A DNA stretch of 29,659 bases from a virus. This document shows positions 8,594 through 29,148 of the stretch, piece after piece (the first letter of the stretch is position 1; each line of letters begins with the position of its first letter). Both the position numbers and the translations under genes were made by a program. The notes under the pieces were generated by a model. The model was not told the DNA's origin. It worked only from the letters and a program-made list of their open reading frames with translations, and did no database searches. The DNA is taken from IMG/VR virus record IMGVR_UViG_3300045135_001232, positions 1 to 29,659 of that record; one strand, written 5' to 3'.

Positions 8594-8941
8594 TTAAATT
8601 CTGAAAATTGGTAGTAGCCGCAATTCCTTGCCCGCTTTTCTTTGCTCTTGGCATTCATTGATTAACTGCTCGGCAATCCTTGCCTTTTCCTCTCTGATCT
8701 TTGGGCCAAGCTTATGCCGCCCTATACGATTTCTTACTTGGTGCCACGTTAGCCCCAAGGCGCTTGCTATCGTCCCATCATCAACACCTAATGCCTTGCA
8801 TTGAATAACAAATGCTAGCTCGTCATCGTTCCAGCGCTTATATGGCGTTGGGCATGGCTTGCGCACAGGTTTAGGTTTGCTTGCCTCTGGGTGAAGCTTA
8901 TCTAAAGCCTCTTTACTTGGTTTGTGAACTAACCCCGTCAT
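8594..8941 (-). CDS. Helix-turn-helix DNA-binding protein
   Basis: A 115-residue basic protein. Residues 35-75 have a Myb/GcrA-like three-helix pattern: RWNDDELAFVIQCKALGVDD, then IASALGLTWHQVRNRIGRH. The pattern of an acidic first helix, a turn before IA..LG and a recognition helix with V.NRI is shared with the two other small HTH genes at 9343-9645 and 9642-10028. The N-terminus is rich in Lys and Pro. The ATG (8939-8941) has GGGG 6 bases upstream and nearly abuts the MazG-like stop. It is probably a phage transcription regulator; the target is unknown. Confidence 0.7.
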   Translation of the reverse strand: MTGLVHKPSKEALDKLHPEASKPKPVRKPCPTPYKRWNDDELAFVIQCKALGVDDGTIASALGLTWHQVRNRIGRHKLGPKIREEKARIAEQLINECQEQRKAGKELRLLPIFRI

Positions 8942-8950
8942 AATTCACCC

Positions 8951-9343
8951 CTAGAACTTTTTGCCGCCCGCTTTGTCGCGGTTCTCTGGCTTATGGTCGG
9001 CTCGTTTAGTGTTGTAGGCTAGTTTCTCAGCAATAGCGCCACCAATGTCTAAGCCTAAGCCGCCGGACATATCCATAATACGAATTACAGCGTCGGCTAA
9101 CTCAACCTCTAGCATGTCGCGATTAGGTAAGTGGTCGTCTTTCAGGCCCTTGCGTGCGCCCTCCATTGCCTCGCTAATTTCAGAGTGAATAAGGCAAAGC
9201 ATTTCGCCTACGTTGCGATTTGGTTGACGCCACCAGCCGCATTCAACAGCTATGCCGTGGCACATGGTTTGCAATGCGCGTGCGTGCATGTCTATTTTGG
9301 TTTGGCCTGCTTCTGTTTGGATTGCTTGAACGTATGTAGCCAT
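8951..9343 (-). CDS. MazG-like nucleotide pyrophosphohydrolase
   Basis: A 130-residue all-alpha NTP pyrophosphohydrolase. The metal-binding signature is visible as E55-xx-E58 (LIHSEISEAMEG) and E81-xx-D84 (VELADAVIRIMD), separated by a loop with RKGLKDDHLPNRDM. Family members hydrolyse NTPs or dNTPs to monophosphates, clearing aberrant nucleotides or, it has been suggested, adjusting alarmone levels in infected cells. The ATG (9341-9343) overlaps the upstream stop (TAATG) and has ACGGGG 7 bases upstream. It sits among small HTH genes in the early leftward arm. Confidence 0.85.
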   Translation of the reverse strand: MATYVQAIQTEAGQTKIDMHARALQTMCHGIAVECGWWRQPNRNVGEMLCLIHSEISEAMEGARKGLKDDHLPNRDMLEVELADAVIRIMDMSGGLGLDIGGAIAEKLAYNTKRADHKPENRDKAGGKKF

Positions 9344-9645
9344 TATTTTTCCCCGTGTGAAATAGCGTTAATTATATCATTTTTGATCGTTTCGCGCCTG
9401 TCTGCTATGCGATCATTAAGCCTTAGCTCATATATTTTATTGTTTACTGTTTGATGCGACAGACCTAGCGCCTCGCCAATCTCGTATAGCGTAAACCCAA
9501 GCGCCCGCAATTCAATAATGAGGGGTATTTGGTTTTTTACACATACCCTGCGCCTACCCTTTTTTTTCGGCTTCACCAGCTTGTATTTCTCAAGCCTGTA
9601 TTTCTCAAACTTCTGTAAGTTTGGTTTAAATCCTAGTCCTATCAT
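9343..9645 (-). CDS. Helix-turn-helix DNA-binding protein
   Basis: A 100-residue strongly basic protein. Residues 12-34 are Lys/Arg-rich. Residues 38-75 form an HTH: NQIPLIIELRALGFTLYEIG, then EALGLSHQTVNNKIYELR. The ATG (9643-9645) overlaps the previous gene's stop (ATGA) and has GGGAGG 4 bases upstream. It is the middle of three HTH genes. It has no recognisable effector domain and is probably a regulator. Confidence 0.72.
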   Translation of the reverse strand: MIGLGFKPNLQKFEKYRLEKYKLVKPKKKGRRRVCVKNQIPLIIELRALGFTLYEIGEALGLSHQTVNNKIYELRLNDRIADRRETIKNDIINAISHGEK

Positions 9646-10028
9646 GCTGCCTCCCTGCGCTTCCGCATTACCTCGCTAGTTGCTTTGCCAGCCGCTTTGC
9701 AGCTAGCGTTTTTGCCGTTTCTATAAGAACGCTCCCTAACCCATTGCGGCATTTTGGCAATACGGTTTTTTATATACGATCTGGAAACGCCTAGCTCGCT
9801 GGCTATTGTCGGCACAGTCTTTCTTTGCGCTACCTTTGTTGCAATAATATTAGGGTCAATATCAAGACTGTGCTTGTAAGGTTCCCTGTCTATGCCGTAG
9901 CGCTTTGCTGCCTGTGTTACGCCTGACTTAGTGCGCCCCATAGCCTTAGCCAAGTGCTTTGTGCTAACCCTGTTGTAATACTTTCTAAGTATACCGACTT
10001 CCTTTTCTGTCCACGCTTTATAATCCAT
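9642..10028 (-). CDS. Myb/HTH-type DNA-binding protein
   Basis: A 128-residue basic protein with two repeats of HTH pattern. The first (2-48) is AWTEKEVGILRKYYNRVS, then LAKAMGRTKSGVTQAAKRYG, very Myb/SANT-like. The second (58-92) is IIATKVAQRKTVPTIASELG, then SRSYIKNRIAKM. The C-terminal 30 residues are Arg, Lys and Ala-rich. The ATG (10026-10028) has a strong AAGGAGG site 4 bases upstream, the best in this arm. It likely controls transcription of phage or host genes; targets are unknown. Confidence 0.75.
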   Translation of the reverse strand: MDYKAWTEKEVGILRKYYNRVSTKHLAKAMGRTKSGVTQAAKRYGIDREPYKHSLDIDPNIIATKVAQRKTVPTIASELGVSRSYIKNRIAKMPQWVRERSYRNGKNASCKAAGKATSEVMRKRREAA

Positions 10029-10037
10029 ATGACCTCC

Positions 10038-10442
10038 TTATCGGTAAAAAATATGCTGCCCTAGCTTAACCGTTGCGGCGTAGTCGCCCGCCCAATACGG
10101 CTGCACATAGTCAGCGTGATAAAAGGTTGCTCCCTCTGTAATGTCTATTACATCGGTATTTTGTACGCGGTAGGCCAAGTGCAAGGCTTGCTGCCATGCT
10201 TGGTCATCCTGTGGCATGTCTGACTTACCATCACACCACCAGCTAAACGCGCACTTGTTGCGGATAGGGTGGCCTTCCCAATAATGGCCTTGGTGTACAA
10301 CAGCGCAAATACTGTTAGGGAACTTAGGCGAGTTGACGCGGTTTTGCACAACCAGCGCCACCGCTATTTGCCCAGCCAAAGGCTCCCCGCGTGCCTCATG
10401 GTAAATATTCATAGCTAGGCACATGGTTGCCTCAAGAATCAT
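10038..10442 (-). CDS. SleB/Hydrolase_2-type cell wall hydrolase
   Basis: A 134-residue enzyme matching the SleB-like cell wall hydrolase family, which cleaves peptidoglycan glycan strands. The conserved NIYHEARGEP lies near residues 12-21, its first Glu being the expected catalytic acid. It is followed by QIAVALVVQNRVNS, a CAFSWWCDGKSD segment and a C-terminal ATFYHADYVQPYW typical of the family. The start is taken at ATG 10440-10442 (GTG 10445 is the alternative). The start overlaps the end of csrA by 11 bases, with AAGGGG 6 bases upstream. No signal peptide is seen. Its place in the early arm, far from the M15 endolysin, is unusual; it may be a second lysin. Confidence 0.85.
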   Translation of the reverse strand: MILEATMCLAMNIYHEARGEPLAGQIAVALVVQNRVNSPKFPNSICAVVHQGHYWEGHPIRNKCAFSWWCDGKSDMPQDDQAWQQALHLAYRVQNTDVIDITEGATFYHADYVQPYWAGDYAATVKLGQHIFYR

Positions 10443-10611
10443 CACTAGCCCCTTTGTCTTTCAACTCAGCCCGCACAATGCGCACGGATTTATCAGCCTC
10501 GATACCCACGCGAACTTGATTGCCGCCAGCATGTAGAATCATAACCTCGATAACCTCGTCATCGGTTTCAATGTATATGCTTTCTGCTACTCGTCTTGTT
10601 AATACCAGCAT
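10432..10611 (-). CDS. csrA: CsrA/RsmA-family RNA-binding translational regulator
   Basis: A 59-residue frame too short for common length cutoffs. It starts MLVLTRRVAESIYI and has GGNQVRVGIEADKSVRIVR in the second half, a clear match to CsrA (MLILTRRVGE and GNQVRIGV in E. coli). The RNA-contacting positions are kept: Leu4, Arg6-Arg7 and Arg47, which aligns with E. coli Arg44. The loop between the first strands is three residues longer than in E. coli. CsrA dimers bind GGA motifs near ribosome sites and change translation or mRNA decay. The ATG (10609-10611) has AAGGGG 5 bases upstream, follows the exonuclease stop at one base, and overlaps the hydrolase gene. Confidence 0.93.
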   Translation of the reverse strand: MLVLTRRVAESIYIETDDEVIEVMILHAGGNQVRVGIEADKSVRIVRAELKDKGASDDS

Positions 10612-10612
10612 G

Positions 10613-11251
10613 TTAACCCCTTAGTTTTTGTTCGTATGTGCAAACCAGCTTATTAAATTCCAGCAAGTCGCTTTCTAGTTGCTCAATAAAATTGTCGTCA
10701 CGCTCTACGCGGATAATGGTCAGGTCGCGCCCGATATTCTTAAGCGCTGGGCAGTACAACACAAAGTCGGCCCATAGTCGTTCAGTTACCCAAAGCTGAC
10801 CTTGCACTTGGTCGATAACGTGGCTTAAGTCGTCGTTTAGCAATATAGGCATAAGCGAGTCAGGCGATATAAAGCACTTGTACTCGCTAGCCCCGTCATG
10901 GTCGATAAGGCCGTCAACGGACGCGCCAAATACACCGTCGTCAGTTAAGGCTATGCCCGCTTGTTCCACTAGGATGCCTTTCGCCGCCTCATGCGCTAGC
11001 CGCGCCTCTGGCTCTAGCTCTCGGCCTCGTTTCATTGCCCAAGTGTCATATTGGTCAACGTCTAGCAGCTCCCCGCTAATACGCTCAATAGCAACCCTAA
11101 AGGCGTACTTGTGGGCCGCGTTGGTAAAGTCGCCCTTGTTAGGGCCAGACTTCAAGCGCTTGCGGCACTCGGCAAAGTTGCTGGCGGTTATCGCGCCAGC
11201 TCTAGCGGCAAACCATTCGGCTGTGCCTTGTTCACATTCAATTATGCGCAT
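10613..11251 (-). CDS. Lambda Exo/YqaJ-type exonuclease
   Basis: A 212-residue 5'-3' double-strand DNA exonuclease of the YqaJ family, partner of RecT-type annealases. Visible motifs are TAEWFAARAGAITASNF (10-26), GRELEPEAR (76-84), VFGASVDGL (107-115) with Asp113, EYK at 123-125 giving Glu123 and Lys125, and VIDQVQGQLWVT further on. Together they form the D-x(n)-ExK PD-(D/E)XK centre. The ATG (11249-11251) overlaps the recT stop by 10 bases with GAGG upstream. It makes single strands for annealing during recombination and concatemer formation. Confidence 0.92.
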   Translation of the reverse strand: MRIIECEQGTAEWFAARAGAITASNFAECRKRLKSGPNKGDFTNAAHKYAFRVAIERISGELLDVDQYDTWAMKRGRELEPEARLAHEAAKGILVEQAGIALTDDGVFGASVDGLIDHDGASEYKCFISPDSLMPILLNDDLSHVIDQVQGQLWVTERLWADFVLYCPALKNIGRDLTIIRVERDDNFIEQLESDLLEFNKLVCTYEQKLRG

Positions 11252-12132
11252 TGTTCTTCCTCGATTGTTTGGCTCTTAAGCCAGTTTAAAGCGCCCTCGT
11301 AGCGCTGCGCTGGTAGCTCATGGATATTGTTTATCTGCGCCTTTTTGCAAAGGTCATCAAGAGTAAGCCCCGCCATGTCTGCCGCCTTGGTCAGGTTTTC
11401 GATTTCAGTGTCATCAACCAAAATAACAGCCGGAACCTCTTTGACTTGCTCAAACTCGATGCCCTCATGCTCGTTAACGGCGTCAATAGCTAAGTTTAGG
11501 CGGTCAACCTTGGGCCAATACTTAGAGGCCCGCTTAACAACTGTCTTGCGCGTCATTTCTTCGGGCCATGTTTTCCAAGGGCCGTTTGCCGCGCTCGATG
11601 CGTTACGCACTTTGTTAATGGCCTCTATGTCCATTTCCTCGGTTAGGTAGTCGCCCTTGCTGGTTTTCACTGTGCAATAGACGCCCACTAGCTTGCCCTT
11701 GTCGCCAAAGGTTTTTTGCTTGTGCGTTGGCGCTTGGTCGATGCCGTTGTTTTCGTAGTGGTCGTTTTCATACACAAGCTTTGCTTGCCCCCACTCAATA
11801 GAGCCGGATTGCATAGCTAGGTGCATTAGGCCTTGGTAGCTAATATCTAAGCAGGCAACAGGCGCTTGCCCTTTCTTGGTTGCCCGTGGCACAAGGTAAG
11901 CATGCTTAAGCGCTGGGTTTAGACTAATGCCAATAGCCGCCACATTGATAATGGCGTTTTGCAGGGCGGCGGGTGCATTCATTGCTGCCTTAGCCAAGTA
12001 GTCGTTATTGCCTAGCGCCTGTATAGCGAACTGGCTTTCTTTGGCCCACTCAACAGCGTTGTTGCCAAGGGCCGCGTTAAAGAATGACTCTTGCTGGTTA
12101 ACAAGGTCGATTGGTGTTAATTCGTTGCTCAT
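11242..12132 (-). CDS. recT: RecT single-strand annealing protein
   Basis: A 296-residue RecT-family annealase. The diagnostic blocks are AALQNAIINVAAIGISLNPA, HAYLVPRATKK and VACLDISYQGLMHLA, then WPEEMTRKTVVKRASKYWP. The start is taken at ATG 12130-12132 with CGGGGA upstream; the longer frame to 12174 adds 14 residues without a ribosome site and overlaps a small gene. It anneals complementary strands made by the neighbouring exonuclease, together forming a Red-like recombination system. The gene is in the early leftward arm. Confidence 0.93.
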   Translation of the reverse strand: MSNELTPIDLVNQQESFFNAALGNNAVEWAKESQFAIQALGNNDYLAKAAMNAPAALQNAIINVAAIGISLNPALKHAYLVPRATKKGQAPVACLDISYQGLMHLAMQSGSIEWGQAKLVYENDHYENNGIDQAPTHKQKTFGDKGKLVGVYCTVKTSKGDYLTEEMDIEAINKVRNASSAANGPWKTWPEEMTRKTVVKRASKYWPKVDRLNLAIDAVNEHEGIEFEQVKEVPAVILVDDTEIENLTKAADMAGLTLDDLCKKAQINNIHELPAQRYEGALNWLKSQTIEEEQCA

Positions 12133-12154
12133 TTTATTTATCCCCGTGGGCAGC

Positions 12155-13809: not shown

Positions 13810-14562
13810 ATGAGTAGAATTATTAGCTGGTTTAGTTGCGGGGCTGCAAGCGCAGTAGCAACAAAATTAGCCATATCTAGTATGGGGGGGGTGACAGTTG
13901 CTTACTGTGAAGTCAAAGAAGAACACCCTGACAACAAGCGCTTTCTTAAAGACTGTGAACAATGGTTTGGGCAGGAGATAATCATATTAGGTAATGATAA
14001 ATACAATCGCTCTATTTACGAAGTGTTCAATAAAACACGGTATCTGGCTGGACATAGTGGCGCACGTTGCACGCTAGAATTAAAAAAGAATGTGCGTAAG
14101 CAGTTTGAGCGACCAACAGATCAGCAAGTTTTCGGTTATACCGTAGAAGAACAAAACCGAGTTGACCGCTTTATTGACGCAAATAACGAAGTTGACTTGA
14201 TTACTCCATTAATTGATCGCGGCCTAACCAAACAAGACTGTTTAGCCATGCTTGAGAATGCCGGAATCGAATTGCCAGCCATGTATAAGCTAGGCTACAA
14301 AAATAACAATTGTCGCGGCTGTGTTAAGGCGCAATCTCCTGCTTACTGGAAGAAGATACAAATCGACTTCCCAGATTTCTTTGAAGCTATGAGTAAGCAA
14401 GAGCAGAAGCTAGGCGTAAAGATATGCAAAACAACCATAGACGGGGTGCCAGATGTACGCATACCGCTAACTGAGTTGCCAGAGCACATTAAGCCAATGG
14501 ATGACTCAATAGATGCGCAATGCGGCATATTTTGCCATATGGCAGAAGATGAATATAAATAG
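13810..14562 (+). CDS. PAPS-reductase / adenine nucleotide alpha-hydrolase family protein
   Basis: A 250-residue protein with the N-terminal nucleotide-binding loop SCGAASAVA (residues 9-17) of the PAPS reductase/ATP-pyrophosphatase superfamily. It continues with VAYCEVKEEHPDNKRFL, then YLAGHSGARCTLELKK, and cysteine pairs CRGC and CGIFC near the C-terminus. Phage homologs are commonly annotated as PAPS reductase; real substrates are unknown, and relatives act in sulfur transfer and DNA modification. It starts at ATG 13810 with AAGGGG 6 bases upstream, downstream of the replication gene. A G8 tract at 13884-13891 lies inside the coding region. Confidence 0.8.
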   Translation: MSRIISWFSCGAASAVATKLAISSMGGVTVAYCEVKEEHPDNKRFLKDCEQWFGQEIIILGNDKYNRSIYEVFNKTRYLAGHSGARCTLELKKNVRKQFERPTDQQVFGYTVEEQNRVDRFIDANNEVDLITPLIDRGLTKQDCLAMLENAGIELPAMYKLGYKNNNCRGCVKAQSPAYWKKIQIDFPDFFEAMSKQEQKLGVKICKTTIDGVPDVRIPLTELPEHIKPMDDSIDAQCGIFCHMAEDEYK

Positions 14563-17053: not shown

Positions 17054-17079
17054 TGCGGCCCTAACAGGAGGTTAGAAAA

Positions 17080-17265
17080 ATGTGGTATGAAATTAATGTA
17101 AGCTTAAATGGCAAGCACTACTTTGCAACCAATGAGCGCAGCATCCGAACCTTGCCTAAAGCTATGAGCATAGCAGAGCATTTTAAAAAGGTTTTTCCTG
17201 CTAATGATGGTTATGAAGTTGAGGTAACAGAACACACCCAGATAGCAAAGAGGGTTGCAAAATGA
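17080..17265 (+). CDS. Small conserved-type phage protein of unknown function
   Basis: A 61-residue protein: MWYEINVSLNGKHYFATNER, then SIAEHFKKVFPANDGYEV. Similar small proteins occur in other phages by my recollection, without a known role. AGGAGG lies 8 bases before the ATG. Its stop overlaps the next start (ATGA). Confidence 0.68.
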   Translation: MWYEINVSLNGKHYFATNERSIRTLPKAMSIAEHFKKVFPANDGYEVEVTEHTQIAKRVAK

Positions 17266-29060: not shown

Positions 29061-29111
29061 TACCCCGTTAAATTTTTACCCCGTTAAAATCCAGCGACAG
29101 GCATACGGGGT
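29061..29111 (-). repeat. Direct repeat and complementary segment before the tail chaperone gene
   Basis: TACCCCGTTAAA occurs twice on the plus strand (29061-29072 and 29077-29088). On the minus strand each copy contains an ACGGGGTA ribosome site. A further ACGGGGT on the plus strand (29105-29111) is complementary to both, so the mRNA can pair its upstream ACCCCGT with either copy. The near copy serves the chaperone start. The gap 29056-29148 holds nothing else clear except a short stem (TCTAG-CGA-CTAGA). Confidence 0.55.
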
Positions 29112-29148
29112 GAATGCTTTTCGATTTCTCTAGTCGCTAGAAAACAGT

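Follow-up and report, generated by a model that had tools for sequence, protein, structure and literature searches.

The 29,659-base IMG/VR virus record IMGVR_UViG_3300045135_001232, analysed in full and called the window below, encodes a 59-residue protein that is a full-length phage member of the CsrA/RsmA family. Bacterial CsrA is a regulator that binds messenger RNAs and controls translation. Phage csrA genes are already known in hundreds of phages, and the present gene is a real but ordinary example. The published work on them includes surveys in 2020 and 2021 (PMC7366521, PMC8450108) and one knockout study (PMC7546807). The survey of PMC7366521 lists csrA in 30 phages, VvAW1 and F116 among them. 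In PMC8450108, GenBank and IMG/VR were surveyed for phage csrA; RsmA represses cas genes, phages carry RsmA homologues, and an anti-CRISPR role was proposed. The preliminary description of this DNA called the gene hidden below the usual length cut-off. This was overstated, as public records annotate phage csrA genes of 57-70 codons.

Family membership, fold and RNA-contact residues

10432-10611, minus strand: csrA-like gene, 59 aa, ATG start (PF02599 at 62.7 bits; PHROG 9500; CsrA/RsmE fold matches)
10617-10622, minus strand: AAGGGG, Shine-Dalgarno-like site of csrA, without a GGA core (sequence and leader fold)

The 59-residue frame is present on the minus strand, and the proposal that it encodes a CsrA homologue was borne out. 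The CsrA profile search suggested as its check gave a match across the domain and above the curated Pfam cut-off (PF02599, 3e-17, 62.7 bits against a cut-off of 27, profile positions 1-50 of 53). PHROG 9500, "CsrA-like regulator", matched residues 1-53 over profile positions 1-50 of 65 (4.3e-14). Sequence matches to CsrA/RsmA chains in the PDB reached 4e-7 at best. The AlphaFold2 model, built on an 85-row alignment, had a mean pLDDT of 87.8. When the model was compared with the PDB by Foldseek, the top 14 structures were all CsrA, RsmA or RsmE (E 0.003-0.03, probability 0.99-1.00), and the first match after them had a probability of 0.41. A chance match of the frame to the CsrA family is excluded. 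The AAGGGG lies five bases 5' of the csrA ATG and overlaps the final codons of the exonuclease gene.

The protein missed the NCBIfam csrA equivalog cut-offs (TIGR00202, 56.4 bits against 70.1; NF002469, 53.7 against 73), so we file it as a CsrA family member and not as a csrA equivalog. No relative found was more than 58% identical to it over the best segment. Judged by sequence, it is a divergent new member of the known phage-CsrA kind. In a tree on the 59 residues it grouped with the phage protein L008 (support 0.78); the deeper nodes were weak and gave no firm placement. The search for a close DNA relative among phage records found none, and the terminase was nearest to those of Pseudomonas and Acinetobacter phages (68%).

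The preliminary description also held that key RNA-binding residues are kept, and the RNA-contact side chains of solved complexes are indeed retained. The RNA contacts of RsmE are Thr5, Arg6, Gln29, Arg31, Arg44 and Glu46 (PMC4005645). All of them are found here, as T5, R6, Q32, R34, R47 and E49. The residues M1, L2, L4, R6, R47 and E49, which occupy invariant columns in an alignment of 85-88 CsrA proteins, are all present. The membership test on the RNA-contact residues of beta1 and beta5 found L4, T5, R6, R7, R47 and E49, in columns that are 92-100% conserved. Like the chromosomal CsrA, RsmA and RsmE, the phage protein has the fold, the LTRR strand and the equivalents of R44 and E46. It differs from them in a beta2-beta3 loop longer by three residues, in its score below the NCBIfam equivalog cut-off, and at two positions: Asp40 replaces a near-invariant Pro (Pro in 84 of 88), and Val46 replaces His43, the commonest residue at that position. 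Because of these two replacements, its RNA affinity or preference may differ.

Gene neighbourhood and accessory status

11242-12132, minus strand: RecT-like annealing protein, ATG at 12132, listed frame from TTG 12174 (PF03837, PHROG 148)
10613-11251, minus strand: YqaJ/RecE-type recombination exonuclease, directly upstream of csrA (PF09588, PHROG 149)
10038-10445, minus strand: SleB-type cell-wall hydrolase (PF07486, 6e-25)

On the minus strand the order is recT, the YqaJ exonuclease gene, csrA and the hydrolase gene, then small HTH genes. The hydrolase start overlaps the csrA end by 14 bases (GTG) or 11 bases (ATG 10442). Three near-adjacent small HTH proteins (8594-8941, 9343-9645 and 9642-10028, minus strand) all match PHROG 323 (D5-like regulator), as if duplicated. 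Elsewhere in the window, a phosphoadenosine phosphosulfate reductase-like gene (PHROG 424; 13810-14562, plus strand) lies between replication genes. An Rfam int-alpA RNA (RF02996, 41.3 bits, cut-off 35.8; 29079-29140, minus strand) lies between two apparent tail genes.

In the two closest relatives of the exonuclease (67-70% identical), an ATPase-like gene occupies the place of csrA, and csrA is absent. Since csrA is missing behind these nearest relatives, it is an accessory add-on gene here and not a core gene. Among 20 exonuclease relatives, only L282 had csrA nearby, which rules out csrA as a fixed partner of the YqaJ exonuclease family.

The position of csrA near recombination or replication genes recurs in unrelated csrA phages. 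The neighbour is a DEDD exonuclease in VvAW1 and L196, RecE in L002, L004 and L212, Sak4 in L006, L241 and L262, RecE-RecT in L292 and L299, and a primase in L205, L247, L295 and L301. RecE-like exonuclease and Sak4, with four each, were the commonest families among 97 genes near csrA loci. This recurrent siting points to early expression of csrA.

The Vibrio phage VvAW1 encodes a similar CsrA-like regulator (YP_007518368.1). It belongs to the CsrA family, carries the same three additional beta2-beta3 residues, and its gene lies directly downstream of an exonuclease gene and overlaps it. It differs in being 41% identical, with a DEDD exonuclease, an HNH nuclease as the next gene and a longer C-terminus (70 aa).

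The longer beta2-beta3 loop

10552-10569, minus strand: csrA codons 15-20 (E-T-D-D-E-V), the beta2-beta3 loop holding three extra residues (alignments and model secondary structure)

The three-residue longer loop noted earlier is real. It forms residues 15-20 of the model, between beta2 and beta3, and is shared by other phage CsrAs, namely those of Vibrio phage VvAW1, Xanthomonas phage PhiXhv-12, Erwinia phage Ep032 and several IMG/VR contigs. Loop forms were counted with one CsrA DNA pattern at two fixed spacings, which replaced a query-biased comparison of the first relative sets. The +3 spacing was found in 16 viral contigs and in 1 of 369 genomes sampled around a Dasania genome, from the class taken here to be Gammaproteobacteria. 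The standard spacing was found in at least 120 viral contigs and in 73 of 94 genomes from that class. The protein of the single +3 genome is identical to that of the IMG/VR viral contig L205/L289, so its csrA is very probably a prophage gene. The data indicate that the +3 form is a minority among viral CsrAs and nearly absent from chromosomes, occurring almost only in phages and prophages. Most +3 csrA genes adjoin recombination or replication genes. The almost exclusively viral occurrence of this loop and its usual siting may be the less familiar part of these results.

The +3 CsrAs might form a virus-specific branch or a recurrent variant. In the present protein, the longer loop and Asp40 would then alter RNA choice or partner binding, giving a different set of messages or an escape from host CsrA antagonists. 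We consider this quite doubtful.

Two further CsrA forms were observed. Proteobacterial CsrAs (L124, L134, L144, L156, L163 and L164), mostly from gammaproteobacterial MAGs, are lengthened at the same place between beta2 and beta3 by a much longer insert, of about 17 residues. The CsrA-fold phage protein L008:351-536 has the stretch IEADKSVRI and the +3 loop as in the query, and lacks the LTRR strand and the RE pair. Its gene adjoins a major head protein gene. From its sequence, it is possibly a non-RNA-binding CsrA derivative.

Candidate RNA targets and the proposed role

12141-12145, minus strand: GGGGA in the recT leader, without a predicted A(N)GGA hairpin loop (leader sequence, shuffles, fold)
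17061-17075, plus strand: CUAAC-AGGAG-GUUAG hairpin with the Shine-Dalgarno sequence in its loop, before gene 17080-17265 (61 aa) (leader fold; count not above chance)

We believe, with moderate confidence, that the phage CsrA is an early-expressed mimic of host CsrA that acts on host messages. The protein would be made early, from one leftward transcript with the recT and exonuclease genes, and would form a strand-swapped dimer. This dimer would bind GGA-containing leaders of host messages for metabolism, motility, biofilm and possibly cas genes. The bound messages would be blocked in translation or stabilised, to the benefit of phage growth. Family membership, the retained RNA-contact residues, the fold model, the position in the recombination block and the accessory status speak for this reading; early expression, the dimer, RNA binding and host messages as the main targets are the steps we infer. 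Asp40 for Pro, Val46 for His43 and the score below the NCBIfam equivalog cut-off count against it.

Two CsrA sites had been suggested within the phage itself, the AAGGGG before csrA and the GGGGA before recT. The first is a Shine-Dalgarno sequence without a GGA core. The second is present before recT, but GGGGA was not enriched in the phage leaders (2 against 2.4 in shuffled leaders). Folding of the csrA and recT leaders gave an A(N)GGA (CsrA-type) hairpin in neither. Both were therefore ruled out as CsrA sites. GGA was likewise not enriched in the phage leaders and lay slightly below the shuffles (28 against 37.7 ± 4.4). Among the phage leaders, that of gene 17080 alone has a CsrA-type hairpin. 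Since 0.8 such sites would be expected from density, the hairpin is only a candidate CsrA site. With neither GGA nor CsrA-type hairpins enriched in the leaders, the phage's own messages are therefore not obvious targets.

A separate feature of the leaders is a Shine-Dalgarno style of the form (A)ACGGGG(T) or AAGGGG, found before about 14 genes; ACGGGG occurred 9 times, against 1.0 in shuffled leaders.

Minus strand, starts of genes with GGGG-style leaders: 1276, 2856, 5139, 8149, 8503, 8941, 9343, 10445, 10611, 12132, 18455, 29055
Plus strand, starts of genes with GGGG-style leaders: 13810, 15629

Vibrio phage 1.232.O shows this style strongly too (16 of 68 genes). The idea that csrA phages avoid GGA by using GGGG Shine-Dalgarno sequences was ruled out: in a comparison of loci, GGGG-only sites were equally frequent with csrA (11%), in csrA-unknown or csrA-negative phages (13%) and in bacteria (12%). 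The style is probably a host-lineage trait and not an effect of csrA.

The explanation that the phage CsrA times the phage's own gene expression through phage leaders, and not host messages, is unlikely in our view. It could appeal to the place of csrA within a phage operon and to the Shine-Dalgarno sequence in the loop before gene 17080, but that single hairpin equals the density expectation, leader GGA falls below the shuffled expectation, and the csrA and recT leaders have no site. The phage protein could instead disturb host CsrA through mixed dimers, or by soaking up small RNAs of the CsrB/RsmZ type, and so shift its activity indirectly. We hold this to be less probable still. The dimer fold is conserved, and the loosely grouped paralogue L008 (support 0.78) keeps the core without the LTRR strand and RE pair, like a non-binding partner; however, the present protein keeps its RNA-contact residues, which makes a pure spoiler unnecessary. 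That the gene was captured from a host only recently and has no function would fit its absence at the same spot in the nearest relatives but is very improbable, since a best-segment identity of at most 58% to any known CsrA, with all invariant columns and its own ribosome-binding site intact, speaks for long maintenance and not for fresh debris.

For the mimic of host CsrA, characterised mobile-element proteins offer precedents. Deletion of phage bci alters infection, host quorum-sensing transcripts and biofilm (PMC7546807), and the plasmid CsrA RsmQ is a global regulator that takes over host control (PMC9928087). Because of these two precedents, reprogramming of host translation by the phage CsrA is plausible by analogy. 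Bci/RsmM of Pseudomonas aeruginosa phages (F116 type, AUS531phi; PMC7546807, PMC7366521) is another CsrA encoded by phages, and its knock-out gives evidence that it affects infection and the behaviour of the host. Unlike the present protein, it has the standard loop and 123 aa with a C-terminal extension; the two are 44% identical over 50 residues. RsmQ (PMC9928087) is likewise a CsrA of a mobile element, but it is encoded on a plasmid and experimentally characterised; the action on host translation is that of RsmQ, and the likeness is drawn from its description.

The 59-residue csrA gene is in itself one more example of a published class. Provided that its product binds RNA as expected, a protein of 59 residues, expressed together with the recombination genes, would let the phage shift host translation. 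The wider pattern, a loop variant found nearly only in viruses and a repeated siting by exonuclease, RecT, Sak4 and primase genes, turns the reason why phages keep CsrA into a testable question.
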